This document shows, piece after piece, positions 5,136-48,592 of a stretch of 64,000 nucleotides of DNA. The notes below the pieces were generated by a model. It was given only the letters and a program-made list of their open reading frames with translations, did not search any database and had not been told where the DNA came from. This stretch comes from Magnetospirillum sp. GTDB taxonomy: Bacteria > Pseudomonadota > Alphaproteobacteria > CACIAM-22H2. Position 1 is the first letter of the stretch. Each line of letters begins with the position of its first letter. The position numbers were made by a program, and so were the translations under genes. Location: assembly GCA_027532905.1 (NCBI GenBank), contig JAPZUA010000002.1, forward strand, positions 558,001 through 622,000, in the 5' to 3' direction.

Positions 5136-5163
5136 GGCGTTTGCGTCCGATATAGGTTTCGGA

Positions 5164-6872: not shown

Positions 6873-6902
6873 TTGCCGACATCCTGACGACAGCAATATT
6901 GT
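6873..6902 (+). promoter_or_regulatory. Candidate sigma-70 promoter for the SDR-VOC-PuuE-like operon
   Basis: TTGCCG (6873-6878) and TATTGT (6897-6902) are separated by 18 bp and could serve as -35 and -10. The -10 overlaps the GntR-type palindrome, the arrangement expected for a repressor blocking RNA polymerase. Matches to consensus are moderate. Confidence 0.4.
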
Positions 6903-6909
6903 AATACAA
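6899..6909. promoter_or_regulatory. GntR/FCD-type operator TTGTAATACAA
   Basis: This 11-bp sequence fits the TNGTNNNACNA operator pattern known for FadR-subfamily regulators. The identical 11-mer occurs at 10240-10250, in the next promoter region of the same gene block. It lies 57 bp upstream of the SDR start codon. Confidence 0.6.
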
Positions 6910-6965
6910 GTAGACAATGGCTAGCATTTGCGTGGCGGTAGGAATTTCGGGATCGCGGAGGGGCT

Positions 6966-7733: not shown

Positions 7734-7756
7734 GCGGGCGGTCGGCCTCGGGCGCC

Positions 7757-7772
7757 CGTCGCGAAAGCGACG
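7757..7772 (+). other. mRNA hairpin with GAAA tetraloop between SDR and VOC genes
   Basis: CGTCGC and GCGACG form a 6-bp stem closed by a GAAA tetraloop, directly after a CGGGCGCCCG palindrome. There is no T-tract, so it is more likely a processing or stability element than a terminator. Confidence 0.35.
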
Positions 7773-7815
7773 AGGTCCGTAAAAGCAGCCGCGCTATTCA
7801 TTTTAGGAGACCGAG

Positions 7816-8322
7816 ATGAACATCCATGCCCCGAATTCGGCGCCGTCCGACAACCCGAACATTCTCGGCCTCAAGCACATGGCTTTTGCAGTAAGGGATG
7901 CGGATGCAGCGCTCCGCGCCTACGCGCGGTTCCTGTGTGTGCCGGGCGACACGAAGATCGTTGAGTACCAAAAGTCGCGCAATCGCGTGGCGCTGTTCAA
8001 TCTCGGCGGCGTGGAATACCAGCTTTGCCAATCGATGGATCCGGGCGGCCGTTTCGACGCGTGGATCGACGCGCGCGGCGGTGAGGGGCTCCACCATATC
8101 TGCTACGCGGTCGACGACATCGGAAAGGCGCTCGCGCACGCGCAGGCGAACGGCGCCCAGCTGCGCGGCTGCAAAGGCTGCGGCGGCGTGACGGGTTCGC
8201 ATCCGCATCCCGAAGGCTACGTGGCGTTCCTCGACAACGACGCAGGCGGGATCGAAATCGAGTTCATGCAAGTCTACACAGCCGACGAACTCAAGCAGTA
8301 CGAGTCGGTGAAGGGAATCTGA
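7816..8322 (+). CDS. VOC-superfamily protein, methylmalonyl-CoA epimerase/glyoxalase-like
   Basis: The 168-residue protein contains paired beta-alpha-beta-beta-beta modules of the vicinal oxygen chelate fold. Candidate metal ligands sit at His21 (LKHMAF), Gln69 (VEYQLC), His94 (LHHICYAV) and Glu149 (IEIEFMQ), matching the pattern of methylmalonyl-CoA epimerase. An AGGAG ribosome site precedes the ATG by 6 bp. The operon setting with an SDR and a deacetylase-like hydrolase suggests a dedicated catabolic step rather than propionate metabolism. The substrate cannot be read from sequence. Confidence 0.8.
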   Translation: MNIHAPNSAPSDNPNILGLKHMAFAVRDADAALRAYARFLCVPGDTKIVEYQKSRNRVALFNLGGVEYQLCQSMDPGGRFDAWIDARGGEGLHHICYAVDDIGKALAHAQANGAQLRGCKGCGGVTGSHPHPEGYVAFLDNDAGGIEIEFMQVYTADELKQYESVKGI

Positions 8323-8404
8323 ACATGCGCATCGGCGATCGGTGCGGCTTCATCAACAAGGTGCAGGGGCCGCGTACGTAACGCCGACGCGAGGAGACAG
8401 GCGC

Positions 8405-9325
8405 ATGGGCAATTCGAGCGACCGCGATCTGATCGGCTATGGCGAGAACCCGCCGCATGCCGACTGGCCGGGCGGTGCGCGTATCGCGCTCAATTTCGTG
8501 CTCAATGTCGAGGAGGGGGCCGAATACGCCGTCGGCGACGGCGACGGCCGTTCGGAAACGGCCTTGACCGAAATCGCGTCGCCGCGCGTACCGGTGGGCG
8601 AACGCGATCTGGCAGCCGAAAGCATGTACGAATACGGTGCGCGCGCCGGCTTCTGGCGGCTCGCGCGTCTTTTCCGCGATCGGTCGTTGCCGCTCACGGC
8701 GTTCGCCTGCGCGCTCGCACTCGAGCGCAATCCCGAGATTGCCGCCGTGATACGGCGGCAGGATTGGGACGTGTGCTGCCACGGCTATCGCTGGATCGAG
8801 CATTATCGCCTCTCGCGCGACGAAGAGCAGGCGCAGATCGTCAAGGCCGTGGCGTCGCTCGAACAGTCGCTGGGGCAGCGGCCCTTCGGCTGGTATTCGC
8901 GCTATGCGCCCAGCGTGAACACGCGCGCCCTGCTCGCGGAGGAGGGCGGCTTCGTCTACGATTCAGACTCGTACGCCGACGATCTGCCCTATTGGGTGAA
9001 GACGGGCGAGCGCGACCATCTGGTGATCCCATATTCGCTCGTCACCAACGACGCGAAGCTGGTCAACGCCTTCACCGCCGCCGACACGTTCTTCCACATA
9101 TTGCGCGACGCGTTTGATACGCTCCATGCAGAAGGGCAGGAGCGCCCGAAAATGATGAGTGTGGGCATGCATCCGCGCATTCTCGGCCATCCCGCGCGCA
9201 CGGCCGGGCTCGTGCGCTTTCTCGACCATGTGCAGGCGAAAGAAGGCGTGTGGATCTGCCGGCGCATCGACATCGCGAAGCACTGGACCGAGCGCTTCGG
9301 TCGCGTCGCCTCGAAGGCGGCGTGA
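8405..9325 (+). CDS. Polysaccharide deacetylase-family hydrolase, PuuE allantoinase-like
   Basis: The 306-residue protein begins with DLIGYGENPPHADWPGGARI and FVLNVEEGAE, a signature of the NodB-fold PuuE/allantoinase-like group. It has the CCHGYRW segment in the middle and a SVGMHPRILGHPAR metal/active-site loop near the end. PuuE-type enzymes hydrolyse the cyclic amide of allantoin; relatives act on other cyclic or linear amides. No other purine genes occur here, so another ring amide is possible. The ATG is preceded by GGAG at 8 bp. It ends four bases before the convergent NHL gene. Confidence 0.75.
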   Translation: MGNSSDRDLIGYGENPPHADWPGGARIALNFVLNVEEGAEYAVGDGDGRSETALTEIASPRVPVGERDLAAESMYEYGARAGFWRLARLFRDRSLPLTAFACALALERNPEIAAVIRRQDWDVCCHGYRWIEHYRLSRDEEQAQIVKAVASLEQSLGQRPFGWYSRYAPSVNTRALLAEEGGFVYDSDSYADDLPYWVKTGERDHLVIPYSLVTNDAKLVNAFTAADTFFHILRDAFDTLHAEGQERPKMMSVGMHPRILGHPARTAGLVRFLDHVQAKEGVWICRRIDIAKHWTERFGRVASKAA

Positions 9326-9329
9326 AGAT

Positions 9330-10178
9330 TCAGGCGACCGGCACCAAGCGTGTGATGCGGCTCGGCGTGCCTTCGGCCAGATAAAGCGTACCGTCGGCGG
9401 CCCCGGTGAGGCCGTGCGCCCCGTTCAGCACCGGCCGACAGCGGCCGATGCGCGTGCCGTCGGGTGCGATGCAGGTCAGCGTCGGAATGCCGTCGCTCAC
9501 ATACAAGCGCCCCGCGGCATCGCCCCAGATGCCGGACGGCCGGCTGAATCCGGTCCAAATCGCGACGAGGCTGCCGTCCGCGTCGAAAACCTGGAGCCGG
9601 TTGTTCTCGCGGTCGACGACGACGATGCGGCCGTCGTTGCACAGCCAGATTCCGTGCACGGTGAGGAACTGTCCGGGCCCGGCTCCGACTTCGCCGAACG
9701 TGCGGCGATGCGCGTAGTTGGGGCCGAACAGATGCACATGGCCGTTGGCATAGCCGTCGGCCACCGCGATTGTTCCGTCGGCGCCGAAGGCGATGTCGGT
9801 CGGATGGCTGAAGGGGCGGCCGGGGCCGTTGCGCGTGCCGAGCCGCGCGAAGGGCCGGCCGTCGAGGTCGAAGCCGACGATCTCGTGGGCGTCGCGATCG
9901 ACAACCCACAGCCGACCCATCGGATCAGTGGCGATTTTATGGGCATCGGCGATGTCTTCGGCGCCGAAACTGCCCACGCTTTCGCCCGTGACCGACATCA
10001 GGCGCACGGGATCGACAAGCGCCTCGCAGTAGGGATCGGTGCGCGCCAGGATCGCCACGCGGCCGCGCCCGTCGATCGCCACGTCCGTGACTTTTCCGGG
10101 CGTCGTTGCGATGCCCCAGGGCCGATCGATGCGGTAGACTTGGCCGCCGAGGGAGACCTTGAAAGGGTTGTGAACCAT
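9330..10178 (-). CDS. NHL-repeat beta-propeller protein
   Basis: The 282-residue protein is built of repeated NHL/SMP-30-like blades; clear ones include DAHKIATDPMGRLWVVDRD, HPTDIAFGADGTIAVADGY, VHGIWLCNDGRIVVVDREN and PSGIWGDAAGRLYVSDG. There is no signal peptide, so it is probably cytoplasmic. Such propellers are often lactonase-like hydrolases or peptidyl-amide lyases, but no catalytic assignment can be made. It is transcribed divergently from the dimethylformamidase-like gene across the 10238-10252 operator, so the two are probably co-regulated. The antisense frame extends much further upstream but is only a shadow of the neighbouring gene. Confidence 0.8.
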   Translation of the reverse strand: MVHNPFKVSLGGQVYRIDRPWGIATTPGKVTDVAIDGRGRVAILARTDPYCEALVDPVRLMSVTGESVGSFGAEDIADAHKIATDPMGRLWVVDRDAHEIVGFDLDGRPFARLGTRNGPGRPFSHPTDIAFGADGTIAVADGYANGHVHLFGPNYAHRRTFGEVGAGPGQFLTVHGIWLCNDGRIVVVDRENNRLQVFDADGSLVAIWTGFSRPSGIWGDAAGRLYVSDGIPTLTCIAPDGTRIGRCRPVLNGAHGLTGAADGTLYLAEGTPSRITRLVPVA

Positions 10179-10237
10179 TTGCTCAGAGCCCCGGCCCGTG
10201 CGTTTGCATGACGATCGATCCCCGAACGGCTTTGTCT

Positions 10238-10252
10238 GTTTGTAATACAAAC
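10238..10252. promoter_or_regulatory. GntR/FCD-type operator in the divergent promoter region
   Basis: GTTTGTAATACAAAC is an inverted repeat with arms GTTTGTA and TACAAAC around a central A/T. It contains the same TTGTAATACAA core found at 6899-6909. It lies between the divergent NHL and dimethylformamidase-like start codons, 60 and 68 bp from them, so one bound regulator could control both. Confidence 0.65.
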
Positions 10253-10319
10253 TTCGGCGGAAATGAACCATTCTGGCACATGCGCCCAATGCGGCCGGGC
10301 GGCGCAAGGAGGGGGAGGC

Positions 10320-12488
10320 ATGTATCGCATTGTCGGCTACTGCGACCGCTGGAGTGCACGGCCCGGTGAGGCGGTGCGCTTTATGGTGTCCAGCGTCGGC
10401 GATGCGCCGTTCGATCTGCGCTTCGTGCGTCTGCTGTGCCCAGATCCCAATCCGGACGGGCCGGGCTACAGCGAAGTTGCGATGCCGACTGGTCTCGACG
10501 GGAAGCAGCCGGGCTTCGAACGTCCGGCCTATCTCGGAAGCTACGGCCATGCGGCAGGCCTGAAACTCGGCAGCGATACGATCCGCCTGTCGGCGACGGT
10601 TTGGCCGACGACGCCCGGCAAAGGGCTGCAGGGAATCCTGGCCCTTGAGGGCAAGGGCGGATCGTTCGCGTTGGCGATCGGGCCAGGCGGCGGTGCAGCA
10701 GCGATCGTCGCGCGTGCGAATGCAGCGCCGACGATCGTCGAAGTAAAGCTGCCGCTGCAGCAGCAGGGCTGGGCCGACATCGTCGCGACGTATGCGCCGG
10801 ACGGCACGGTGGCGGTCGAACAGCGCGCCCATCGGCCGCAACGCGATGTGGGCGAAGCGCGTGGTACTGCACCTGCTGTTGCGTTCGGCGGTGCGGCCAA
10901 TGTCTTCGTCGCGGCATTGCCGCCCGACGGGGCCGGGGCACCGGCGTGCGCGCACTACAACGGCAAGATCGAGCGGCCGACCGTTGAATGCCGTGTCGCC
11001 GCTTCGGATGCATGGCAAACGGCTGCGCAATGGGATTTCGCGGCCGACATTCCCATGCAGACGGCGCCCGATGCGCGCGGCGCGGTACCGCCGCTCGAAC
11101 TCGTCAACTTCCCGGCGCGCGCCATGACGGGTTCGAACTGGACCGGGACGATCCATGATTGGCGCCGCAATCCTGCACAATACGGTGCGATCCATTTCCA
11201 CGACGACGACCATGGCGATACCGGCTGGCCGACGAGTTTCGAACTGCGCGTGCCCGACGATTGGCCGACCGGTTTCTACGCCGCACATGTACGCAGCGAA
11301 GTTGCCGAAGACATGATCCCGTTTTTCGTGCGGCCGCGTGCGCCGCAGGCCGATGTGGCGTTCCTCGTTCCCACCTTCACCTACCAGGTCTACGGCAACC
11401 ATTTTCGTCCCGGGCGCGGGGCCGAGATCGCCGCGCGCGCCGCTGCGTGGGGAGCACTGCCTCAAACGCCCGACATGAATCCGCAATTCGGCATGTCGAC
11501 CTACCAGCGCCATGCCGACGGTTCGGGCATTTCGGTCGCCTCGCTGCTGCGCCCGATGTTCGACACGCGCCCCAAACAGATCAGCGTGATGGATCCGGCA
11601 CCCGGCGCTTCGGGGGCGGGCCGCATCTGCGCCGATGCCTACGTGTCGCAATGGATGCGCGAAGAGGGCGTCGCGCACGACGTCGTGACCGACCATGATC
11701 TGCATGCCGAAGGGCTCACCGCCATCGCACCCTATCGCGTGCTGATAGCGGGCCAGCATCCGGAGTATCTGTCCGAACGCATGATGCAGGCGATCGAAGC
11801 GTTTCTCGAAGCGGGCGGCCGGCTCATGTATCTCGGCGGCAACGGCTTCTACTGGCGCGCCGAGCCGAGTGCGACGCATCCGCATGCGCTCGAAGTGCGC
11901 CGCGCCGAAGGCGGCATTCGCACCTGGGAGACGCAGCCCGGCGAGAGCTACCATGCGTTCGCGGACGGTTACGGCGGCCTGTGGCGCCGCATCGGGCGGC
12001 CGAGCCACAGGCTCGTCGGGATCGGATTCTCGACGCAAGGCCGCTATTCGGGCTTTCCCTATCGCTTCACCGCCGCAGTCGCAGATCCGCGCGTAGCGTT
12101 CATGTTCGACCGCGTCGATGCCGAGCCGGGGGCCGAGTTCGGCGCGTTCGGCTATATGGGCGGCGGGGCGGCAGGTTTCGAACTCGACAGCGTCAATGCG
12201 CGCTACGGTTCGCCCGCCCATGCCCTCGTCGTCGCCAAGGGTGTGGTGCTGCGCCCCGACTATTCGTGGGTCAACGAAGACATGCTGACCGAAATTCACC
12301 CGCGCCCGCGCGAGGCTTGGTCGTGCGCCGACATGACGTTCTTCGAAACGCCGGCGGGCGGTGCGGTCTTCTCGGTGGGGTCGATGACGTTTGTGGGCGC
12401 GTTGCCGATTGCCGGTCAATTGCGGCAGCTTACCACAAACGTCTTGGCGCGGTTCCGCGATCCCGCACCGTTTGACATGCCGCGTTAG
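10320..12488 (+). CDS. N,N-dimethylformamidase large (beta) subunit-like protein
   Basis: The 722-residue protein resembles the large subunit of dimethylformamidase, a mononuclear-iron amidohydrolase that splits dimethylformamide to dimethylamine and formate. The N-terminal half is lectin-like and beta-rich; the C-terminal half carries the GQHPEYLSERM segment (His480, Glu482) and GFELDS (Glu621). With Tyr395 (MSTYQRH) these are at about the spacing of the Tyr/Glu/Glu iron site described for the enzyme; the residue match is my inference. A GGAGGGGGAGG ribosome site precedes the ATG, and an in-frame upstream ATG lacks one. No small-subunit gene is adjacent, so it may act on a different amide. 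Confidence 0.75.
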   Translation: MYRIVGYCDRWSARPGEAVRFMVSSVGDAPFDLRFVRLLCPDPNPDGPGYSEVAMPTGLDGKQPGFERPAYLGSYGHAAGLKLGSDTIRLSATVWPTTPGKGLQGILALEGKGGSFALAIGPGGGAAAIVARANAAPTIVEVKLPLQQQGWADIVATYAPDGTVAVEQRAHRPQRDVGEARGTAPAVAFGGAANVFVAALPPDGAGAPACAHYNGKIERPTVECRVAASDAWQTAAQWDFAADIPMQTAPDARGAVPPLELVNFPARAMTGSNWTGTIHDWRRNPAQYGAIHFHDDDHGDTGWPTSFELRVPDDWPTGFYAAHVRSEVAEDMIPFFVRPRAPQADVAFLVPTFTYQVYGNHFRPGRGAEIAARAAAWGALPQTPDMNPQFGMSTYQRHADGSGISVASLLRPMFDTRPKQISVMDPAPGASGAGRICADAYVSQWMREEGVAHDVVTDHDLHAEGLTAIAPYRVLIAGQHPEYLSERMMQAIEAFLEAGGRLMYLGGNGFYWRAEPSATHPHALEVRRAEGGIRTWETQPGESYHAFADGYGGLWRRIGRPSHRLVGIGFSTQGRYSGFPYRFTAAVADPRVAFMFDRVDAEPGAEFGAFGYMGGGAAGFELDSVNARYGSPAHALVVAKGVVLRPDYSWVNEDMLTEIHPRPREAWSCADMTFFETPAGGAVFSVGSMTFVGALPIAGQLRQLTTNVLARFRDPAPFDMPR

Positions 12489-12504
12489 GCGCGGTTTGGT
12501 TTGC

Positions 12505-12834
12505 TCAGCGCGTTGCGCGGGCAAGTCCGGCTTGGATCGCCTCTTGAACTGCCGCCGGCTGTTCGGCCAGAACCTGACCGAACCCGTCGACCAAACAGCG
12601 CAGCTCGTAAATCTGGTCGAGCAGCGACAGCACGATCGGCATCGTCTCCTCGGGCGTCGCCATCTCGCGACGCAGATCGTAGATCAACCGGGTTCGCGCA
12701 ATGTCGATGTCGCGAAACGACCAGCCGCCGGAAGCGTCGGGCTCGGGCTGGATCCAGCGTTGTGCCACCCATCCGGCGAGCTCGCCCGTCGCCAGATCCT
12801 CGAAAAGCAGGGCCACCGTCTCGAGCGAGTTCAT
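12505..12834 (-). CDS. CbpM-like chaperone modulator (MerR-like), orphan
   Basis: The 109-residue protein has the CbpM layout: an N-terminal acidic helix pair (MNSLETVALLFEDL), a MerR-like recognition stretch (WSFRDIDIARTRLIYDLRRE), then PIVLSLLDQIYELRCLVDGF and a C-terminal helix. CbpM binds the J domain of the DnaJ-like CbpA and inhibits it. The ATG is preceded by AAAGGTG. In other genomes the gene normally follows cbpA; here its upstream side holds an antiparallel GH130 remnant and no J-domain gene, so it is an orphan. A stand-alone MerR-type regulator is the alternative. Confidence 0.65.
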   Translation of the reverse strand: MNSLETVALLFEDLATGELAGWVAQRWIQPEPDASGGWSFRDIDIARTRLIYDLRREMATPEETMPIVLSLLDQIYELRCLVDGFGQVLAEQPAAVQEAIQAGLARATR

Positions 12835-12837
12835 GGC

Positions 12838-13041
12838 GTCACCTTTGTTGCGCGTTCGCGCGAACCATAGATCCGGCCCGAGCCGTTCGAGCGCGAAGGT
12901 TATGTGCCGAACGTCGTCTATACGTGCGGCCTCATCAAACACGGTGCGGATCTCGTGATTCCGTATGCGGTATCGGACACGTTTACGAACTTCGCGACGA
13001 TTCCCATTCTGCAGCTGTTGAAAACGCTCGAGCCAGTTTGA
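12838..13041 (+). pseudogene. Remnant of a GH130 mannoside phosphorylase-like gene (C-terminus)
   Basis: One plus-strand frame reads VTFVARSREP, an in-frame TAG (12868-12870), then IRPEPFEREGYVPNVVYTCG, a Leu-Ile-Lys-His-Gly segment, IPYAVSDTFTNFATIPILQL and a natural TGA. This matches the C-terminal end of GH130 family glycoside phosphorylases, where a leucine normally stands at the stop position. The rest of the gene is missing; upstream sequence belongs to the antisense CbpM gene. The fragment keeps family-like residues, so the loss looks fairly recent. The call rests on recognition of the conserved end motif. Confidence 0.65.
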
Positions 13042-13059
13042 TTGCTTGGGGCAACCCAC

Positions 13060-13075
13060 ATTGTCGATGTACAAT
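13060..13075. repeat. Inverted repeat ATTGT-N6-ACAAT
   Basis: Perfect 5-bp arms flank CGATGT in an AT-richer stretch between the GH130 remnant and the ABC binding-protein gene. It may be a regulator site for that operon, but nothing ties it to a given protein. Confidence 0.35.
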
Positions 13076-13222
13076 TCGAAATTGCCGCCTATTTCGGCGC
13101 GAATCGCCCAATCCCAGGGCAGGTTGCCTATACCATAAACTACATAATTCTTGTGTTGCGGCGTCCGCCGAATTTTCGAGCGCTTCCTCTTGTTTGTCTG
13201 GGCGCTAAGGGCCATTTGCGAT

Positions 13223-13242
13223 GACGAAATTGTGATTTCGTC
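13223..13242 (+). repeat. Perfect hairpin GACGAAAT-TGTG-ATTTCGTC in the 5' leader
   Basis: Eight-bp perfect arms with a 4-base loop lie 28 bp upstream of the binding-protein ATG and 15 bp before its AGGAG ribosome site. It could be an operator or an mRNA leader stem; there is no T-tract. Confidence 0.45.
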
Positions 13243-13270
13243 CTACCCGCCAATCCCAGGAGTTCCCCCC

Positions 13271-14365
13271 ATGCTCAACAATGTGTCGCGTCGCGGCTTC
13301 CTCGCGGGCTCGGCTTCGCTGACCGCTCTCGGCGCCACCGGCCTTGCTGCCCCCGCGATCGCACAAGGTGCGATGACGCCGGTCAAGTTCACGCTGCCCT
13401 TCGTGGCGCAAGGCGCGACGGCTTTTGCCTTCGTTGCGCGCGAGCGCGGCTTCTTCCGCGCGCGCGGTCTCGATGTCGATATCGCCCTCGGCACCGGCTC
13501 GCCGCCGGCAGCCCAAGCGATCGCCGCCGGGCAGTTCGATATCGGTCTCGTCTCGGCCGCCGCGACGATCCAGCAGGCCGCGCGCGGCCTCAGCCTCACG
13601 GCCGTCGGCACGATGATGTACGACGCGACGATGGCGATCGCCGTACCCGCCGACAGCCCGATCCGCACGCCCAAGGATCTCGAAGGCAAGCGGCTGGGCG
13701 CTAATCCGCGCGGCCTCGACTTCGCGTTTTGGCCGGCCTATGCGCGCCTTGCCAACATCAATACGACCGGCATCACGGTCCAGCAGCTCGATCCCAACGT
13801 GCTCGAGCGCACGCTTTCGCAGCGCCAGGTCGATGCGGTCACGTGCGTTGCAGCTTCGTCGCTGCCGACGTTCCAGTCGCTCAATCTGCCTGTGCGTTTC
13901 ATGATGTGGAAGGATGCGGGCCTCAATTTCTATCACAACACCGTCGTCACGCGGCCCGACGTGGTGGCACAGCGCCCGCAGCTCGTGCAGGGCGTGGTCG
14001 ATGCGCTCGGCGAGGCGATGGCGCTCACCTTGCGCGATCCGGATGCAGCCCTCGAAGCCTTCGTGCGCCAGCGCCCGGAAATCGGCATGTCCGACCAGTC
14101 GCGCGGCTCGGCGCGTTTGGGTCAGGGGCTGATGGGCGTTACGGTCGCTCAGGAAGAGGCGATCCGCAACGGCATCGGTTTCGCCGACATGGCCAAGGTT
14201 GACAAGATGATCGATACGGTCATGGAGTTCTCGGTGCAGGACGGCCGCCGCCCGGTCACCGACCAGCTCTACACGAACCGCTTTGCCGGCAACATCAAGC
14301 TCACGGCCGCCGAGTGGGAAGCCGTGCGCGTGCGCAAGGCGCCGTTCGCGCAGTTCCTGGCCTAG
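13271..14365 (+). CDS. NitT/TauT-family (SsuA/NMT1-like) ABC substrate-binding protein
   Basis: The 364-residue protein has a Tat-type signal (SRRGFLAGSAS followed by a hydrophobic run, cleavage near APAIAQG) and the periplasmic binding fold of the NMT1/SsuA type: FVARERGFFRARGLDVDIALG, AAGQFDIGLVSAA and a KDLEGKRLGANPRG hinge. It would capture a small nitrogenous, sulfonate or pyrimidine-like solute. AGGAG lies 8 bp before the ATG. It is the first gene of the operon with an ATPase and a permease, but a strong terminator separates it from them. Confidence 0.88.
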   Translation: MLNNVSRRGFLAGSASLTALGATGLAAPAIAQGAMTPVKFTLPFVAQGATAFAFVARERGFFRARGLDVDIALGTGSPPAAQAIAAGQFDIGLVSAAATIQQAARGLSLTAVGTMMYDATMAIAVPADSPIRTPKDLEGKRLGANPRGLDFAFWPAYARLANINTTGITVQQLDPNVLERTLSQRQVDAVTCVAASSLPTFQSLNLPVRFMMWKDAGLNFYHNTVVTRPDVVAQRPQLVQGVVDALGEAMALTLRDPDAALEAFVRQRPEIGMSDQSRGSARLGQGLMGVTVAQEEAIRNGIGFADMAKVDKMIDTVMEFSVQDGRRPVTDQLYTNRFAGNIKLTAAEWEAVRVRKAPFAQFLA

Positions 14366-14374
14366 TCCGGAAAA

Positions 14375-14415
14375 GGCGGCGGCCTCTCCGCTAGGGAGAG
14401 GCCGCCGCCGTTTTT
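14375..14415 (+). terminator. Strong Rho-independent terminator inside the ABC operon
   Basis: GGCGGCGGCCTCTCC pairs perfectly with GGAGAGGCCGCCGCC (15 bp) around the loop GCTAG, followed by GTTTTT. The T-tract ends 3 bases before the ATG of the ATPase gene. It should limit read-through so that the binding protein is made in excess. It also leaves the ATPase without a normal ribosome site outside the stem. Confidence 0.9.
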
Positions 14416-14418
14416 GCC

Positions 14419-15210
14419 ATGTCCGATCCGCGTTTCATTCGCGTGCGCGACGTCGCGAAGACCTACGTTGCAGGTGCAACGGAGGTCGAAGCGGTCGCAC
14501 GCGTCGCGTTCGATGTCGCCGAAGGCCAGTTCGTCTCGATCCTCGGGCCCTCGGGCTGCGGCAAATCCACGTTGCTGATGATGTGCGCAGGTCTTGAGGC
14601 CGCGTCGGACGGTACGATCGAAATCGCCGGGCGGCCTGTCGTTGGCCCGCGGCGCGAGTTCGGCCTCATCTTCCAGGATGCGACGTTGTTGCCCTGGAAG
14701 ACGTCGCTCGAAAACGTGCTGTTCCCGATCCGCATGATGAAACGCGATCCCGCCCAGTATCGCGACCGCGCGGAGGCTTTGCTGCGCCAGGTCGGGCTTG
14801 GCGATTTTCTGCACAAGCGCCCGTCCGAATTGTCGGGCGGCATGCGCCAGCGCGTGGCGATCTGCCGCGCCCTGATCCACGATCCCGAATTGCTGATGAT
14901 GGACGAGCCGTTCAGCGCGCTCGATGCGATCACGCGCGACGAGATGAACGAAGCGCTCGCGCGCATCTGGGAAACGCAGCGCAAGACCGGCCTGTTCGTG
15001 ACCCATTCGATCCGCGAGGCGGTGTTTTTGGCCGACCGCGTGCTCGTGATGAGCGGCCGACCCTCGACGATAGCACTCGATTTCCAAGTGCCGTTCGCGC
15101 GGCCGCGCGATCCGGCCCTTGTCGAAACGCCGGAATTTGCCAAAATCTGCGCGATGCTCAAACGCACGATCGAAGCGGGCTATGCGCGCAGTGGCCGGAG
15201 TGCGGCATGA
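14419..15210 (+). CDS. NitT/TauT-family ABC transporter ATP-binding protein
   Basis: The 263-residue ATPase has Walker A GPSGCGKST near residue 49, a Q-loop (FQDATLLPW), the signature LSGGMRQR and Walker B LLMMDEPFSALD. It energises import with the following permease. The start codon sits directly after the terminator T-tract and has no Shine-Dalgarno apart from the GGGAGAG held in the terminator stem. The stop overlaps the permease start by 4 bp (ATGA). Confidence 0.92.
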   Translation: MSDPRFIRVRDVAKTYVAGATEVEAVARVAFDVAEGQFVSILGPSGCGKSTLLMMCAGLEAASDGTIEIAGRPVVGPRREFGLIFQDATLLPWKTSLENVLFPIRMMKRDPAQYRDRAEALLRQVGLGDFLHKRPSELSGGMRQRVAICRALIHDPELLMMDEPFSALDAITRDEMNEALARIWETQRKTGLFVTHSIREAVFLADRVLVMSGRPSTIALDFQVPFARPRDPALVETPEFAKICAMLKRTIEAGYARSGRSAA

Positions 15211-16055
15211 CCGATATCGGTTTGACCGCCCTTGCCGAGGACCCGGCCGAGGAGCGCCGCCGGGCGCGCCTTGCGCGCGCGCGCAAAGCCAAGCTCGTGC
15301 AGGCCTTCAAGCACATTGTGCTGCCGGTGTTGACGGCGCTTGCCGTGCTGCTTGCCTGGGAAGCGGCCGTCGATCTCAACGGCATCCCGAAAGTGATATT
15401 GCCGGCGCCGTCGGACATTGCCGAGCGCATCTGGTCGATTCGCAAGCTGCTCTACGCCAATGCAATCTCGACCACGACCGAAGCGGTCGCGGGCTTTGCG
15501 ATCGCCACCTCGCTCGGCATCGCGCTTGCCGCCAGCCTCGTCTATTCGAGCTGGCTGCGCGCGGCCCTCTATCCGAATATCGTGTTCTTCCAGCTCATTC
15601 CGAAGATCGCACTCGCCCCCTTGTTCATCGTGTGGCTCGGCATCGGGGCCGAGAGCCGTTTGACCTTCGCCGTGTTCATCTCGTTCTTCCCGGTCGTGAT
15701 CGCGACGATCACGGGCCTCACCAACGTGCCCGGCGATATGCTGCGCCTGTGCCGCGGCCTCACTGCATCGAACTGGCAGATTTTTTGGGCGGTGCGCTTT
15801 CCTTATGCGCTGCCGCATCTCTTCTCGGGCATGAAGATCGCGATCACCTTCGCGATCATCGGCGTCGTGGTCGGCGAGTTCATCACCGCAAATAAGGGCC
15901 TCGGCTATCTCATCATGTTCGCCTCGTCGATGGCCGAGACGACCACGATCCTTGCCGCAATTGCGGTTCTGTGCGCGATCGGGCTCACATTGTTCGGCTT
16001 CGTGACGCTGGCCGAAAAGATCGTGCTCAAAGCCTACGGCCACAAGGCTGCCTGA
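15207..16055 (+). CDS. NitT/TauT-family ABC transporter permease
   Basis: The 282-residue inner-membrane protein has about six hydrophobic helices after a basic N-terminal tail (EERRRARLARARKAK). It carries the BPD-type coupling loop around CRGLTASNWQIFWAVRFPYALP. It completes an SsuABC/TauABC-type importer with the two preceding genes. The ATG is translationally coupled to the ATPase gene. Confidence 0.9.
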   Translation: MTDIGLTALAEDPAEERRRARLARARKAKLVQAFKHIVLPVLTALAVLLAWEAAVDLNGIPKVILPAPSDIAERIWSIRKLLYANAISTTTEAVAGFAIATSLGIALAASLVYSSWLRAALYPNIVFFQLIPKIALAPLFIVWLGIGAESRLTFAVFISFFPVVIATITGLTNVPGDMLRLCRGLTASNWQIFWAVRFPYALPHLFSGMKIAITFAIIGVVVGEFITANKGLGYLIMFASSMAETTTILAAIAVLCAIGLTLFGFVTLAEKIVLKAYGHKAA

Positions 16056-16148
16056 AGCAGGGCATTCGCACCGAACCCGCCTGTCGATTTCCCGAACATT
16101 CGATGCTAAAAGCCGAATGCATTCGGGTTCGAGGGGCAGGGGGCGGAA

Positions 16149-17192
16149 CTGGGCGAGATCGGCAATCGGGATATCGGCAGCCTCAAGATCGGCTGCACGG
16201 GCGGCGGGGCCACGCATAGCGACGCCGCGATCCCCGACATCACAACGAAAGTGCGCATGGTCAAGGATGCGGGCGTGTTCGACTATATCGACCGCACGCC
16301 GCCCGACGACGAGTTTCGCGCGCTTTTGAAAGCAAGCGAATCCTGCGATCTGCCGGTGCTTGCGGGCGGCTGGTTCTATGTGCGCGGCCGCGACGAAGCT
16401 CTGTTCGAGCAGAACATCGTCAAAGCCCGGCTGCTCGGCAGCGTCGTGCACAATGTGCAGCTTCTGACCTGCCACGAAGGCGGGCATGTGCTGAGCGACC
16501 GCGAGGTCGCCGATTTTTATCTTTGGGCCCACGATTTCGCTATGCGCCACGGCGTAGTGCCGTGCTTCGAGGTGCATGTGAATATGTGGTCCGAGCATTT
16601 CGGCCGCGTGGCGGAGGTGGCGTCGCTCGTCGAAGCGCAGGGTGTTGCGTTCCGCATGACGCTCGACCACAGCCATGTCGTGTTCAAGATCGACAATTCG
16701 GCCGAACAGGACGTGCAGAACATGCGCGCCGACGTGGAGAGCGGTGCGCTCGTGCTCGAGCCCGGCCGCGAGGGCAACGTGGCGCAGAGCTGGATCGAAG
16801 CGGGTTGGGTGCACCACGCGCATGCGCGCGCGGCTATCCCGGCGAACCCGAAGAATATTCGTGCGCGCCATCCCGACGGTAGTTTCGGGCGCGGCATCCA
16901 GTATCCGTTCGTCGAGCCCGCTCCGGGCGCGTACCACGCGGAATGGGACGGCGAAAAACTCGAGCCATGGAAGCGCACGATGCGCGATCTGCTGCGCCAT
17001 CGCGCGCGCGATCCCAATTCCGTGCTCGGCCAGATTTCGTGCGAGCACATCCCGAACATCGACTACGGTGCGGGCCAGGGCTATTCGATTTTCGACGACA
17101 ATGTCGCGTGCGCCCGTTGGCTGCGCGCGGAATGGATCGCTGCGTGCGCTGACGCCGCGCGGGACGAAACGACAGGGGAGAAAAGCACATGA
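16149..17192 (+). CDS. Uncharacterised protein, probable xylose isomerase-like TIM barrel
   Basis: The product is 347 residues from a proposed CTG, or 313 from the first standard codon (GTG at 16251). The stretch before that GTG encodes IGSLKIGCTGGGATHSDAAI in frame, with no stop, and it reads as an authentic protein start; no ATG, GTG or TTG exists between an upstream TAA and 16251. AGGGGG lies 5 bp before the CTG. The body (VRMVKDAGVFDYID, CFEVHVNMWSEHF, MTLDHSHVVFKIDN, VHHAHARAAIP) suggests a metal-dependent TIM barrel. I do not recognise a characterised member. Its stop overlaps the formaldehyde dehydrogenase start (ATGA), so the two are co-translated. Confidence 0.65.
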   Translation: MGEIGNRDIGSLKIGCTGGGATHSDAAIPDITTKVRMVKDAGVFDYIDRTPPDDEFRALLKASESCDLPVLAGGWFYVRGRDEALFEQNIVKARLLGSVVHNVQLLTCHEGGHVLSDREVADFYLWAHDFAMRHGVVPCFEVHVNMWSEHFGRVAEVASLVEAQGVAFRMTLDHSHVVFKIDNSAEQDVQNMRADVESGALVLEPGREGNVAQSWIEAGWVHHAHARAAIPANPKNIRARHPDGSFGRGIQYPFVEPAPGAYHAEWDGEKLEPWKRTMRDLLRHRARDPNSVLGQISCEHIPNIDYGAGQGYSIFDDNVACARWLRAEWIAACADAARDETTGEKST

Positions 17193-18298
17193 AAGTTCGC
17201 GCCGCTGTGGCCTACAAAGCAAAATCGCCGCTCGTCCTCGAGACGATCGATCTCGAAGGCCCGAAGGAAGGCGAAGTACTGGTCGAAATCAAAGCGACCG
17301 GCATTTGCCATACCGACGAATACACGCTTTCAGGTGCCGACCCCGAAGGGCTGTTTCCTGTCGTGCTCGGCCACGAGGGGGCGGGGATCGTCGTCGATGT
17401 CGGCAAGGGGGTTACGACCTTGCAGAAGGGCGACCATGTGATCCCGCTCTACACGCCTGAATGCCGCCAGTGCAAAACCTGCCTCAGCCAGAAATCCAAT
17501 CTGTGCACCGCGATCCGCGCCACGCAAGGCAAGGGCGTGATGCCGGACGGCACCAGCCGCTTTTCGTGCAGCGGTTCCTCGGTGCTGCATTACATGGGCT
17601 GCTCGACCTTCGCGAATTTCACGGTGCTGCCCGAGATCGCATTGGCGAAGATCCGCAAGGACGCGCCGTTCGACAAGGTCTGCTACATCGGCTGCGGGGT
17701 CACGACCGGCATCGGGGCCGTGCTGCACACAGCTAAGGTCGAGCCGGGCGCCAACGTCGTTGTGTTCGGGCTCGGCGGCATCGGGCTCAACGTGCTGCAG
17801 GGCGCGCGCATGGCGGGGGCCGACATGATCGTCGGCGTCGACATCAACCCCGCGCGCGAGGCGATCGCGCGCAAATTCGGCATGACGCATTTCGTCAACC
17901 CGAAGGATCTCAAAGGCGATCTCGTCGCCCATCTGGTCGAACTCACCAAAGGCGGGGCCGATTACAGCTTCGAATGCGTGGGCAACACCACGCTGATGCG
18001 CCAAGCGCTCGAATGCTGCCATCGCGGCTGGGGCGTTTCGGTCGTCGTCGGCGTTGCAGGGGCGGGACAAGAGATTTCGACGCGGCCCTTCCAGCTTGTG
18101 ACCGGGCGCGTGTGGAAGGGGACCGCCTTCGGCGGCGTGCGCGGCCGCACCCAAGTGCCGCATATCGTCGATTGGTACATGGACGGCAAGATCAATATCG
18201 ACGATCTGATCACCCATGTGCTGCCGCACGAGAAGATCAACGAAGGTTTCGATCTGATGCGCAGCGGCAATTCCATCCGCACCGTTCTGACGTATTGA
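17189..18298 (+). CDS. frmA: S-(hydroxymethyl)glutathione dehydrogenase / class III alcohol dehydrogenase
   Basis: The 369-residue zinc enzyme oxidises S-hydroxymethylglutathione, the spontaneous adduct of formaldehyde and glutathione, to S-formylglutathione with NAD. Catalytic zinc ligands Cys40, His62 and Cys169 and the structural zinc cysteines 92, 95, 98 and 106 are present. The coenzyme motif GLGGIG lies near residue 193. The following gene encodes the next enzyme of the pathway, and the preceding TIM-barrel gene is translationally coupled. This is one of the most certain calls in the window. Confidence 0.95.
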   Translation: MKVRAAVAYKAKSPLVLETIDLEGPKEGEVLVEIKATGICHTDEYTLSGADPEGLFPVVLGHEGAGIVVDVGKGVTTLQKGDHVIPLYTPECRQCKTCLSQKSNLCTAIRATQGKGVMPDGTSRFSCSGSSVLHYMGCSTFANFTVLPEIALAKIRKDAPFDKVCYIGCGVTTGIGAVLHTAKVEPGANVVVFGLGGIGLNVLQGARMAGADMIVGVDINPAREAIARKFGMTHFVNPKDLKGDLVAHLVELTKGGADYSFECVGNTTLMRQALECCHRGWGVSVVVGVAGAGQEISTRPFQLVTGRVWKGTAFGGVRGRTQVPHIVDWYMDGKINIDDLITHVLPHEKINEGFDLMRSGNSIRTVLTY

Positions 18299-18304
18299 GG
18301 CAAG

Positions 18305-19135
18305 ATGGAAACGCTCGCAACGCACGCCTGCTTCGGCGGCACGCAAGGTTTCTACCGCCATGTCTCAACCGCATGTGCGGGCCCGATGCGCTTTGCCGTA
18401 TACTTGCCGCCGCATGCGGTGGGGGCCAAGCTCCCGGCCGTGCTGGCGCTGGCTGGCCTCACATGTACCGAAGAAACTTTCGCGATCAAGGCGGGTGCGC
18501 AGCGCGTCGCGTCGGAACTCGGGCTCATTCTTGTGATGCCCGACACGAGCCCGCGCGAACCCGTCTTGCCCGGCGATCGCGAAGCCTGGGATTTCGGCCA
18601 AGGGGCGGGTTTCTATGTCGACGCGACGCAAGCGCCGTGGAAGGCGCACTACGGCATGTTCAGCTACGTGGTGGACGAATTGCCTGACCTTGTTGCGGCC
18701 GAGTTCCCGGTCGATCCCGCGCGCATCGGCGTGATGGGCCATTCGATGGGCGGGCATGGGGCGCTTGTAGCAGCGCTGCGCCGTCCCGATCGCTTTCGCA
18801 GCTGCTCCGCCTTCGCGCCCATTGCAGCACCCACGCAATGTCCGTGGGGCCACAAAGCGTTCGCTGGATATCTCGGCCCCGACCGCACGGCATGGGCTGC
18901 CTACGATGCATGCGAATTGATGCGCGCCAAGCCGTTTGCGCGCGAGATCCTTGTCGATCAAGGCCTCGCCGACAAATTCTTGGCCGAGCAATTGCGCCCG
19001 GACCTGCTCGAAGAAGCAGCGAAAGTTAGTGGCCAACAGATGACGCTGCGCCGCCATGCGGGCTACGACCACGGCTACTTCTTCATCCAGAGTTTTGTGG
19101 CCGACCATCTGGCGCATCACAAGGGCCAGCTCTAA
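18305..19135 (+). CDS. fghA: S-formylglutathione hydrolase
   Basis: The 276-residue esterase D-type alpha/beta hydrolase splits S-formylglutathione to formate and glutathione. The nucleophile is Ser147 in GHSMGGHGA, the oxyanion region is LAGLTCTEETF, and the catalytic histidine lies in YDHGYFFIQSF near the C-terminus. It starts 6 bp after the dehydrogenase stop and completes the glutathione-dependent formaldehyde pathway. No formate dehydrogenase is in the window. Confidence 0.95.
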   Translation: METLATHACFGGTQGFYRHVSTACAGPMRFAVYLPPHAVGAKLPAVLALAGLTCTEETFAIKAGAQRVASELGLILVMPDTSPREPVLPGDREAWDFGQGAGFYVDATQAPWKAHYGMFSYVVDELPDLVAAEFPVDPARIGVMGHSMGGHGALVAALRRPDRFRSCSAFAPIAAPTQCPWGHKAFAGYLGPDRTAWAAYDACELMRAKPFAREILVDQGLADKFLAEQLRPDLLEEAAKVSGQQMTLRRHAGYDHGYFFIQSFVADHLAHHKGQL

Positions 19136-19160
19136 TTCAGGCAGTTTCTGCTGCGGCATC

Positions 19161-19190
19161 TTGACAGGAGCGCACCCCAATCCCCACAAT
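19161..19190 (+). promoter_or_regulatory. Candidate sigma-70 promoter upstream of the DUF2848-Dpp operon
   Basis: TTGACA (19161-19166) is a perfect -35; CACAAT (19185-19190), 18 bp downstream, is a weaker -10. It lies in the only sizeable gap between the formaldehyde genes and the following long operon. Confidence 0.5.
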
Positions 19191-19246
19191 GAGATATCAA
19201 TAGGTCAAATGAGCGGCGCAGCTGCCGCGACCGAAGAGGGGGAAAT

Positions 19247-19972
19247 GTGGCGCGACTGAAGCTGGAGCTTGCCGAGCGTGCCGGGACGCGAACCGCCGAT
19301 GTCGAGGTTCAGCGCCTCTACAATCTCGGCTCTGCCACGCGCAATCCGGAAAGTGCGCGCGCCCACCAGGAAGAAGTGGCGCATATCGGCGTCAAGATCG
19401 CTTTCGACATTCCGGCACCCCGCATCTATCCGCTTTCTCCCGAAGTGATCACCACATCCGACGCTATTGCCGTGCAGGGCGACCGCACCTCGGGCGAAGT
19501 CGAAATCGTGCTGCTGATGGCCGACACGCTCTATGTCGGCGTCGGCTCGGACCATACCGACCGCACGCTCGAAAAGATTTCGATCTTATGGTCGAAGCAG
19601 GCCTGCGCCAACGTGCTGGCGCCGACGCTTTGGCGGTTCGACGAAATCGCCGCGCATTGGGATTCCTGCCGTCTGCGCAGCTGGGTCGACGGGCGCCTCT
19701 ACCAGGATTGTGGCGTTGACATGTTCAAGCGCCCCGAAGAGCTGCTCGACATCGTGCGCACGCGTACGGGCTCGCTGCCCGCGCGCGATTTCGCGATCTT
19801 CTGCGGCACTTACGTTAGCGTCGACAAATCGGTCGGTTTCGGCAGCGACTGGCGCATCGAACTTGCCGATCCCAAGCTCGGCCGCACGCTCGGCCACAGC
19901 TATCGCGTCCAGAATTTGCTCGACGAAATACGCCCGGAATTCCGGGTTCCGCTCGCTGCCAAACCGCTTTGA
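19247..19972 (+). CDS. DUF2848 family protein
   Basis: The 241-residue protein shows the pattern of DUF2848 proteins: a central SGEVEIVLLMADTLYVGVGSD block followed by HTDRTLEK and SKQACANVLAPTLWRFDEI, and a C-terminal WRIELADPKLGRTL segment. Family members are distantly like fumarylacetoacetate hydrolases but have no assigned reaction that I know of. It starts at GTG after AGAGGGGG and is 31 bp ahead of a Dpp-type binding protein, suggesting that it processes the imported compound. Confidence 0.75.
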   Translation: MARLKLELAERAGTRTADVEVQRLYNLGSATRNPESARAHQEEVAHIGVKIAFDIPAPRIYPLSPEVITTSDAIAVQGDRTSGEVEIVLLMADTLYVGVGSDHTDRTLEKISILWSKQACANVLAPTLWRFDEIAAHWDSCRLRSWVDGRLYQDCGVDMFKRPEELLDIVRTRTGSLPARDFAIFCGTYVSVDKSVGFGSDWRIELADPKLGRTLGHSYRVQNLLDEIRPEFRVPLAAKPL

Positions 19973-20003
19973 TCCGTTCTCTCGAACCCTTGGAGACCGC
20001 CCC

Positions 20004-21593
20004 ATGACCAAGATCGCACGTCGCCAATTCGCTTTGGGCTCGCTTGGTGCGTTGGGGGCGGCGACAATCTGGCGCCGCGCCGAAGCGCAGGCCGTGCCGA
20101 CGTTGGTGCTTGCCGCCACGCGCACGCCGGGCGGCTTCGACGGCGACGCGCTGCGGCCCAACACGCAGAATGTGGTGGTGCAGACCTACGAAGGCCTCAC
20201 GCGCTACGCGGTCGCAAGCGGTGCGGACGGCCGCATCCGCATCGACGGAAGCAAGGTCGAGCCGCATCTAGCCGAATCCTGGCGCGTTTCGGAAGACGGC
20301 AAGACCTGGATCTTTAAGCTGCGCGAGGGCGTGAAGAGCTATTTCGGCAACGAGCTGACGTCGGAAGACGTCGTCTGGGGCTGGCGCAAATCGATCGCCC
20401 AAAACCGCACGGGCGCTTTCATCGCGCGCGTATCGTCCGTCACGAGCGTCGAAGCTGTGTCGCGCTATGAGGTGCGCTTCAATCTCTCGGGGCCGAACAC
20501 GATCTTCCTGCGCGCGCTCACGCTCTACACGCCGTCGATCTACGATTCGACCGTGATGAAGCAGAATGCGACCGCCGAAGATCCGTGGGCGCTGCGCTTC
20601 CTCGAGAGCAATACGGCGGGCTTCGGCCCCTACCATCTGCAGGCACTGCGGCCGAACCAGGAGGCCGTCTACGTCGCCAATCCCAACTATTTCCGCGGCA
20701 AGCCGCATTTCGAGCGCGTTATCTACCGCGAAGTGCCGTCGGCCGCCAACCGCGTGGCGCTGATGCGCGCAGGCCAAGCGCAGTGGACCGAGGAACTGAC
20801 GCAGCGCCAGATCGTCGAACTGCAGCGCGACCGGCGCGTGCGCGTCGAAGGCGAAGAGGGGACGGGCCACGCCTCGGTGCGCATGACGCCGCGCTTCGAA
20901 CCGTTCGGCGACCGACGCATTCGCCAGGCGATGCTCTATGCCGCCGACTACGACGCGATCAACAAGGCCGTGTTCGAGGGGCTGGGCACGCAAGCTAAGT
21001 CGATCGTGCCGCCAGCCATCGAAGGCCACGACGCGTCGGCTTGGGTGTTCTCCACCAATGTCGATCGCGCCAAGGCACTTCTCGCCGAAGCGGGCAAGGC
21101 CGGCGGCGTCACCTCCACGCTCGAATTCTCCGAAATCTTCTGGTGGGAGGAGGCGGTCGCCGTTCAGCTGCGCAGCCAGCTTGCGCGCGCCGGCATCACG
21201 CTCGAGCTCAAGAAGATCTCGGATTCCGACATGCGTGCGCGCACGGCCCCCAACCGGCGCGACCTGCCGTTCTTCACTTTCATGGACAATCCGATCGTGA
21301 TGGACCCGGTCTACACGCTCTATCTCAATGCGCACAGCGACGGCGCTTCGAACCGCAACGACTACCGCAATCCCGCGTTCGATTCGATCGTCGAGCAGGC
21401 GCTCGTCGAACAGAACAACGCCAAGCGGCTCGAACTCGTGCGCGAGGCGCAGCGCATCCACACGACCGACGCGACATGGCTCATGACCATGTATCCCGGC
21501 ACGTTTGAGGCGATGGCGCCGAATATCCGCGGCTGGATCTGGCAGCCCGACCTGCACGAGCGGTGGGTCGATCTGCAAGCCGTGCGCACCTGA
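20004..21593 (+). CDS. Family 5 extracellular solute-binding protein (DppA/OppA-like)
   Basis: The 529-residue protein begins with a Tat-like signal (ARRQFALGSLGALGAATIW, cleavage near AEAQA). It has the SBP_bac_5 pattern: LAESWRVSEDGKTWIFKLREG, then LTSEDVVWGWRKSI, and the FGDRRIRQAMLYAADYDAI hinge. It delivers a peptide or other small nitrogenous ligand to the following permeases. GGAG lies 8 bp before the ATG; the frame extends upstream but only as a shadow of the DUF2848 gene. Confidence 0.9.
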   Translation: MTKIARRQFALGSLGALGAATIWRRAEAQAVPTLVLAATRTPGGFDGDALRPNTQNVVVQTYEGLTRYAVASGADGRIRIDGSKVEPHLAESWRVSEDGKTWIFKLREGVKSYFGNELTSEDVVWGWRKSIAQNRTGAFIARVSSVTSVEAVSRYEVRFNLSGPNTIFLRALTLYTPSIYDSTVMKQNATAEDPWALRFLESNTAGFGPYHLQALRPNQEAVYVANPNYFRGKPHFERVIYREVPSAANRVALMRAGQAQWTEELTQRQIVELQRDRRVRVEGEEGTGHASVRMTPRFEPFGDRRIRQAMLYAADYDAINKAVFEGLGTQAKSIVPPAIEGHDASAWVFSTNVDRAKALLAEAGKAGGVTSTLEFSEIFWWEEAVAVQLRSQLARAGITLELKKISDSDMRARTAPNRRDLPFFTFMDNPIVMDPVYTLYLNAHSDGASNRNDYRNPAFDSIVEQALVEQNNAKRLELVREAQRIHTTDATWLMTMYPGTFEAMAPNIRGWIWQPDLHERWVDLQAVRT

Positions 21594-21597
21594 TGCG

Positions 21598-22617
21598 ATG
21601 ACGGACCAGCTTCGTCGCTTTCTCTATCGCCGCGTTCTGCTGATCGGGCCGATTTTGTTCGGCGTGCTGCTGGTCACTTTTCTGCTGGTCCGCATCGGCG
21701 ACCAGGATCCGGTGGCGATGCTGGCGGGCCCGACGGCGTCGGCCGCGCAGATCGCCGAAGTGCGCGCCGAACTTGGCCTCGACCGGCCGGTTCTCGAGCA
21801 GTTTGCGATCTACATTGCCAAGGTCGCGACCGGCGATCTCGGCCGCTCGTGGCTCAACAGTCGTCCGGTGCTCGACGATCTGTGGCGCCGGGTGCCGGTC
21901 ACGCTCGAATTGCTGCTGCTGGGCGTCGGGCTTGCGGCCGCGATCGGCATCCCGGCCGGCATTGCGGCCGCTTTCCGGCCCGACGGGCGCTTCGACCAGA
22001 TCAGCCGGCTCGTCTCGTTGCTCGGCTTTTCGATTCCGACCTACTGGCTCGGGCTGCTCGCGATCTTTGTATTCTTCTATTTGCTGGGTTGGGCGCCGCC
22101 GCCGATGGGCAGACTCAGCCTGATGATCGATGCGCCGCCGCACGTCACGGGCAGCTACGTGATCGATGCGTTGCTTGCAGCCGATCCCGACGCGCTGGGC
22201 TCCGCCGTGGCGCAGCTCGTACTGCCGGTCGCGTGCATCACGATCATTGCGGCAGCGCCCATGCTCAAACAGGCGCGCGCCATCGCGATCGACGTGTTGG
22301 CGTCGGATTATGTGCGCTATGCACGCGCCTCGGGCTTGCCCGCGCGCGACATTCGCGCCATCGTGCGGCGCAACAGTGCCGTACCGCTGCTCACGTTCGC
22401 GGGCACCGAGCTCACGGGCCTCGTCGGCACTTCGTCTTTGATCGAGCTCGTGTTCGCGTGGGGCGGCATGGGCCAGTATGGCTTGAGTGCCATCCTCGAG
22501 GGCGATTTCACGGCCGTGCAAGGCTATGTGCTGTTCGTGGCTTGCTTCTCGCTGCTGGTCTTCGTCGTCGTCGATCTACTTGTGATGCTGCTTGAACCGC
22601 GGGCGCAAACCGCATGA
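21598..22617 (+). CDS. Dipeptide/oligopeptide-type ABC permease (DppB-like)
   Basis: The 339-residue integral membrane protein has the DppB layout: an N-terminal helix, the conserved DPVAMLAGPTAS and LGLDRPVLEQFAIY segments in the first periplasmic loop, and a C-terminal domain with the coupling loop ASDYVRYARASGLPARDIRAIVRRN. It starts 4 bp after the binding-protein stop and overlaps the next permease by 4 bp. Confidence 0.9.
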   Translation: MTDQLRRFLYRRVLLIGPILFGVLLVTFLLVRIGDQDPVAMLAGPTASAAQIAEVRAELGLDRPVLEQFAIYIAKVATGDLGRSWLNSRPVLDDLWRRVPVTLELLLLGVGLAAAIGIPAGIAAAFRPDGRFDQISRLVSLLGFSIPTYWLGLLAIFVFFYLLGWAPPPMGRLSLMIDAPPHVTGSYVIDALLAADPDALGSAVAQLVLPVACITIIAAAPMLKQARAIAIDVLASDYVRYARASGLPARDIRAIVRRNSAVPLLTFAGTELTGLVGTSSLIELVFAWGGMGQYGLSAILEGDFTAVQGYVLFVACFSLLVFVVVDLLVMLLEPRAQTA

Positions 22618-39632: not shown

Positions 39633-39667
39633 ACAACGCTCCCGATTGCGATCGGGGGCGTTGTCTT
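39633..39667 (+). terminator. Rho-independent terminator after the binding-protein gene
   Basis: ACAACGCTCCCGAT (39633-39646) pairs with ATCGGGGGCGTTGT (39651-39664), with one G-U pair and a TGCG loop, followed by CTTT. The T-tract is short. It separates the binding-protein gene from the aminotransferase gene. Confidence 0.7.
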
Positions 39668-48565: not shown

Positions 48566-48592
48566 CGGCCGACGGGGTGTGCCCGTCGGCCG
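48566..48592 (-). terminator. Intergenic hairpin (attenuator or mRNA stabiliser) after the CUT1 binding protein
   Basis: CGGCCGACGGG and CCCGTCGGCCG form a perfect 11-bp stem around a 5-base loop. On the minus strand it is followed only by TTTCG, so termination would be partial. It sits between the binding-protein stop and the permease start, as the intergenic repeat does between malE and malF in enteric bacteria. Confidence 0.6.

Follow-up and report, generated by a model that had tools for sequence, protein, structure and literature searches.

The gene for a substrate-binding protein (SBP) and the ABC transporter ATPase gene that follows it are separated by a strong hairpin in one operon of this Magnetospirillum sp. 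genome (G000), which raises the question of what such a structure does between two parts of the same importer. Coordinates are those of the window, i.e., the whole 64,000-nucleotide stretch of DNA analysed. The operon lies on the plus strand and opens with an NMT1/SsuA-like SBP gene of 364 aa (13271..14365; Pfam NMT1, 5e-37; TIGR01728 SsuA_fam below its cut-off), which has an SD-like AGGAG upstream and ends in a TAG stop codon at 14363-14365. After a gap of 9 nt, the stem opens at 14375: GGCGGCGGCCTCTCC (14375-14389) pairs with GGAGAGGCCGCCGCC (14395-14409), giving a perfect stem of 15 pairs, 13 of them GC, closed by the 5-nt loop GCTAG (14390-14394). This intercistronic hairpin (14375..14409, plus strand) is followed by G, the five-T tract (14411..14415, plus strand), which partly pairs with AAAA at 14371-14374, then GCC and the ATG at 14419. 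The ATPase gene (14419..15210, plus strand; Pfam ABC_tran, 4e-34), which has no SD at the usual spacing, and the permease gene (15207..16055, plus strand; Pfam BPD_transp_1, 3e-24), which overlaps it by 4 nt, continue on the same strand downstream of the hairpin. The original prediction of a 15-bp stem and T-tract between binding-protein and ATPase genes, with the tract ending three bases from the ATG, is confirmed at 14375-14415, and the gene identities that it proposed hold by Pfam.

With respect to the substrate, no NCBIfam model listed for the SBP, ATPase or permease reached its cut-off (25 of 186 matches were listed for the ATPase). Genes for S-(hydroxymethyl)glutathione dehydrogenase and S-formylglutathione hydrolase, which serve formaldehyde detoxification, lie downstream of the importer (17189-19135, plus strand), a possible hint at a substrate that releases C1 units. 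Between the permease and dehydrogenase genes lies an ORF of 313 aa (16251-17192, plus strand) that matched neither Pfam nor NCBIfam at E 0.001; its chosen start is GTG, and the real start may be further upstream.

The fold energy of positions 14340-14460 is -64 kcal/mol (z -4.8), a value equalled in 1 of 200 shuffles; when the junction alone was shuffled 1000 times with dinucleotides preserved, the energy of the focal hairpin was never reached. The AAAA and TTTT flanks can lengthen the stem to 19 nt at 95% complementarity, and the hairpin amounts to -41 kcal/mol when these extended arms are included. It had the top stem score in a 464-kb genome sample, in which hairpins inside and between genes were compared, and it was listed first among the 15 matches of a terminator scan of 5000-24900, a region that has no overall excess of matches (shuffle mean 17.6). 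With a long GC stem below -10 kcal/mol and an SBP-to-ATPase gap of 53 nt, i.e., over 50 bp, it has the structural features of the class of internal stem-loops found downstream of SBP genes. The order of a canonical terminator, a GC stem and then a T-tract, is present in G000, with TTTTT one base past the stem, and missing from the congener G010; the focal site is terminator-like in the former and not in the latter. A riboswitch or other known RNA family was rejected, as no Rfam family matched within the window at its gathering score. By itself, the focal site is unexceptional, being an internal stem-loop of a known type.

A broader view was obtained from 108 SBPs of G000. Hits to four Pfam families supplied 103 of these (a 104th, the short PF00496 hit at C2:469786 covering 39 of 368 positions, was dropped), and five more emerged when control genes were scanned against Pfam. 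Gene calling relied on a home-made hexamer script, and start codons are approximate. ABC components were taken from the 150 PF00005 and 150 PF00528 matches listed, and all SBP-to-ABC counts hold among these matches. A same-strand permease or ATPase hit follows 66 of the 108 SBPs, at a gap of less than 15 nt in 22 cases, 15-39 nt in 10 and 40-150 nt in 34. Hairpins of -20 kcal/mol or stronger were found in 27 of these 34 longer gaps compared with 3 of 53 control tandem junctions of the same gap range behind non-SBP genes (Fisher p 6.5e-13); at -15 kcal/mol, the counts were 27/34 and 10/53 (p 2e-8). The controls were drawn from ABC-rich stretches, with all 51 of their upstream genes annotated. 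When the 464-kb sample was considered alone, 9 of 14 SBP-to-ABC gaps reached -20 kcal/mol against 3 of 53 controls, and shuffled versions of the 34 gaps did so in 9 of 680 cases. The three control hairpins (L039 4996-5074, L050 14653-14742 and L040 6232-6363) have upstream genes encoding a DEAD-box helicase, a PRC-barrel protein and a protein without Pfam match. Among the 56 ABC-to-ABC pairs in the matches listed, three gaps measured 40-150 nt, and none of the three held a hairpin of -20 kcal/mol or stronger. The hairpin device is optional, since 32 of the 66 SBP-to-ABC junctions have gaps below 40 nt; the ten gaps of 15-39 nt contain none except one of -12 kcal/mol. In addition, 7 of the 34 longer gaps are without a hairpin of -15 kcal/mol. 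Two of the 27 hairpins (C1:286042 and C2:633041) are near-identical in orthologues (1.00 and 0.96), and one of them abuts the assigned start; both may lie inside the true downstream gene, and excluding them leaves 25 of 32.

The position of the hairpins, measured from the GC core of the stems, points to the gene with which they are associated. Across the 27 hairpins, the distance from SBP stop to stem start has a median of 10 nt (IQR 8-14.5), and that from stem end to the next start a median of 25 nt (IQR 16.5-33.5, range 1 to 100). Because the former is tighter than the latter, the hairpin belongs with the upstream message, and the three-base spacing to the ATG, which the original prediction stressed, does not stand as the key feature. 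The 8 nt past the stems contain 3.4 T on average versus 1.7 expected (p 3e-5), with an uneven distribution: five or more T at 9 of the 27 and two or fewer at 12. Orthologous hairpins (n=31) are similarly mixed, with five or more T at 8 and two or fewer at 13. With no more than two T behind 12 of the stems and none behind the focal stem of G010, termination cannot be the sole conserved function.

The window itself contains five SBP genes, and hairpins follow those ending at 14365, 48603 (minus strand) and 39609. The second instance is an 11-bp hairpin (48566..48592, minus strand) after an SBP_bac_1/SBP_bac_8 gene (48603-49898) and before a permease gene (47627-48553). It is retained in the relatives G002 and G004 and lost in G010, where the orthologue of 48553-48603 has shrunk to a gap of 19 nt; this sole lost hairpin is a natural change from hairpin to short gap. 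Beyond the permeases of this operon, where an ATPase might be expected, a gene of 384 aa (45628-46782, minus strand) has no Pfam match at E 0.001. The third, a 14-bp hairpin (39633..39664, plus strand) lying 23 nt past an SBP_bac_5 gene, is outside the set of 27, as the next gene is an aminotransferase-V gene. The SBP gene at 20004-21593 has no hairpin, with a permease beginning 4 nt past its stop, and the one at 36445-37857 (minus strand) ends 3 nt from an opposite-strand gene. Elsewhere in the window, ARAGORN reported a 94-nt tRNA-Glu(ctc) (1653-1746, plus strand) within a called gene (1570-2298), which is probably a false positive.

Comparison with related genomes provides information on how the fold has evolved. 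When 61 genomes were searched as relatives, the focal operon was found at an SBP identity of at least 91% in five of the 11 genomes of the genus, its own included. In each of the other four (G002, G003, G010 and G004, 91-98% identity), a stem lies in the interval from the SBP stop codon to the start of the ATPase gene, and the ATG stands at the aligned position in all five. When 385 genomes of the class were searched, three (G000, G002 and G012) gave a match to the SBP with an E-value of 1e-60 or lower, and a pattern search of genome contigs matched 13 stretches, 5 of which encode relatives. No comparable stem was found beside the G012 homologue (42%) or in an Acetobacteraceae MAG (L031) whose operon is 75% identical. 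The focal stems of G002 and G003 have their outer part in common; one position reads T-A, A-T and G-C across G000, G002 and G003, and two other positions are mismatched. Pair covariation in this three-row alignment was not significant (101 of 500 shuffles), with 3 of 45 cells unpaired; a five-row MAFFT alignment misaligns the replaced stems and was left out of the pair counts. G010 carries an unrelated 13-bp stem without a T-tract, and G004 a third distinct stem followed by TTTTCT. Thus, a run of four or more T past the focal stem is present in G000, G002 and G004, with a weak tract in G003 and none in G010. The stem base lies 7-11 nt from the ATPase ATG in all of these genomes except G004, where the distance is 18 nt.

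The same trend was observed at other junctions. The orthologue search was limited to the focal SBP and the families PF13416 and PF00496. Of 93 orthologues, 12 were dropped for lack of synteny, and 6 of 166 hits in relatives were left out; syntenic counterparts in G002, G010 or G004 could thus be compared for 16 of the 27 hairpins. A hairpin of -15 kcal/mol or stronger is retained at 32 of 33 syntenic orthologous junctions (13/13 in G002, 7/8 in G010 and 12/12 in G004); 31 of those retained reach -20 kcal/mol, and one just -15.8. Short-gap junctions likewise remain without such a hairpin in 45 of 46 cases, and long gaps without hairpin are unchanged (2/2). Median identity of the hairpin segment to G000 is 0.90 in G002, 0.65 in G010 and 0.75 in G004, and that of the coding flanks is 0.96, 0.84 and 0.90 upstream and 0.92, 0.79 and 0.87 downstream, respectively. 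Stem turnover is unremarkable alone, as noncoding DNA is expected to outpace coding DNA; what is notable is the survival of the fold through this turnover. Since 12 of the 27 stems lack a U-rich tail, a U-independent device was also considered. In the genus, the hairpin behind SBP genes could be kept as a position and a fold rather than as a sequence, with every junction remaining either a hairpin or a short gap even as close species replace their stems and T-tracts. Selection may then act on an RNA device, such as an exonuclease block or a ribosome or polymerase barrier, in which the strength of the stem determines the stoichiometry of the importer and the palindromes themselves turn over quickly, a proposal that we regard as tentative and on balance doubtful.

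Several known systems are similar to the one described here. According to the passages of Wu et al. (2022; PMC9045158) concerned, stem-loops directly after SBP genes in Clostridia cause partial termination, measured at 21-96%, and yield SBP in excess over the translocator; stem energy was linked to SBP transcript stability, and at least 15 such stem-loops were predicted in E. coli. Like those of the Clostridia in these passages, the hairpins studied here sit in long intergenic regions directly downstream of a 5' SBP gene and have a long GC stem, often with a low-U tail that pairs with upstream bases; unlike them, they belong to an alphaproteobacterial genome, are known from sequence, and are replaced between congeneric species. 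The malE-malF intercistronic region of E. coli (Newbury et al. 1987, as told in part of PMC5927463) also favours the upstream SBP message over those of the membrane components; unlike it, the focal site has no repeated element. An intercistronic hairpin of another alphaproteobacterium, in the puf operon of Rhodobacter capsulatus, is reported, in work cited by PMC6238624 and PMC5927463, to act on mRNA stability, there in photosynthesis genes rather than a transporter. In the cip-cel operon, as outlined in part of PMC4423207, selective RNA processing and stabilisation likewise lets stem-loops set subunit ratios within an operon, defined there by mapped processing sites and here by sequence. A literature search restricted to open-licence papers found no report of the SBP-hairpin pattern in Alphaproteobacteria. 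The kind of device is already known; the present case adds an example from Alphaproteobacteria and the finding that the fold is maintained while its sequence turns over.

Different functions can be proposed for the focal hairpin, one of which concerns translation. It had been suggested that the only SD-like sequence is buried in the stem, so that readthrough transcripts would hide the ribosome site and a short or leaderless transcript starting nearby could be translated. The SD-like GGGAGAGG (14394-14401) does lie at the loop end and in the 3' arm, but 17 nt separate its last base from the ATG, too far given that SD spacing is usually 5-10 nt. Moreover, the run is exact in G000 only: the corresponding letters are GGGTGGGG and GGGCGGGG in G002 and G003, and nothing SD-like occurs in the 3' arms of G010 and G004, whose G-rich runs are more distant from the ATG, either within the 5' arm or ahead of it. 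On grounds of both distance and conservation, hiding of a ribosome site is not supported. SD-less starts are ordinary in this genome, as 161 of 397 genes have an SD by our own motif test, and SD absence is not tied to the hairpin, as an SD precedes 5 of 27 ABC genes behind an SBP and hairpin and 4 of 32 behind a short gap. A leaderless transcript from a nearby promoter fares no better: the -10 region for a start site 0-11 nt before the ATG falls in the stem or T-tract, where at most 2 of 6 positions agree with TATAAT, although the test is mild, with about 26% of window positions scoring 3 or more and 2 being the commonest value. A very short leader left by RNase processing (processed leaderless RNA) is possible. 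An initiation switch, with the stem masking the ribosome site or with a short or leaderless RNA as the template for the ATPase, would fit the absence of an SD at the usual spacing and the stem-to-ATG distance of 7-11 nt in four of the five genomes (9 nt from the stem base in G000, so that the 30S subunit would meet the stem). Against these points stand the distant, unconserved SD-like run, the poor -10 match, the frequency of SD-less starts even at short-gap junctions, and a stem-to-start distance spanning 1 to 100 nt across the 27 hairpins, which together make the switch improbable; SD hiding and a leaderless start were rejected as the main function on spacing, non-conservation and poor -10 match.

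The remaining possibilities concern the mRNA end or the DNA itself. The perfect stem and five T in G000 would suit a complete operon terminator, with ATPase and permease expressed from their own promoter; such an arrangement is very unlikely, as the T-tract is weak in G003 and absent in G010 though gene order is retained, and a sigma-70 scan of 5000-24900, itself a weak test (shuffle mean 3.2), gives two sites only, 7207 and 19161. REP sequences occur at malE, and the malE-malF region of Newbury et al. 1987 reportedly contains REP; intergenic GC-rich palindromes after SBP genes resemble these, so a repeated mobile palindrome (REP/BIME-like) might lie at the junction by chance. However, a whole-genome search with the junction matched only itself and its own reverse strand, and shared stem sequence is scarce (of the 351 pairings among the 27 stems, only 4 gave a match at E 0.01, in each case of 10-13 nt). 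The many copies of a REP/BIME element are thus lacking, and this explanation was rejected as extremely improbable. A pure 3'-protecting stem, i.e., selective RNA processing and stabilisation with readthrough, an RNase E cut downstream, exonucleases halting at the stem and no termination, is a sub-case of the main reading. It draws on the 12 of 27 stems with two or fewer T, on the focal T-tract being absent in G010 and weak in G003, and on precedents as partly reported for E. coli malE and Rhodobacter puf; in view of the enrichment of T past stems (five or more of 8 at 9/27) and the focal T-runs of at least four in G000, G002 and G004, it is considered a doubtful account when taken alone.

Because T-tracts are mixed across stems and orthologues, both activities are retained in the preferred reading, with partial termination where T's exist and 3' protection everywhere. 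The focal hairpin is probably a leaky internal terminator combined with a 3'-end protector that raises SBP over the translocator. RNA polymerase leaving the SBP gene would stop in part at the GC stem and T-tract; the stem would block 3'-5' exonucleases, whether the SBP mRNA terminates there or is trimmed back to it; the SBP mRNA would accumulate through this protection of its 3' end, and the readthrough fraction would yield ATPase and permease at a lower level. Besides the observed structure, its enrichment after SBP genes, its nearness to the SBP stop and its upkeep through turnover, we infer partial termination, stabilisation and the protein ratio. The original prediction that the site could strictly limit the membrane components relative to the binding protein can be kept as regards a probable limitation, which is consistent with the hairpin lying by the SBP stop, with its enrichment after SBP genes and with the clostridial precedent as described in parts of PMC9045158; "strictly" does not stand, as a T-run of four or more is present in three of the five genomes.

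Thus, a layout known from work on Clostridia recurs across the genome in one alphaproteobacterial genus as well. Moreover, the orthologous stems, which occupy one place with differing sequences and with or without a T-tract, provide a natural series for separating termination from mRNA protection.
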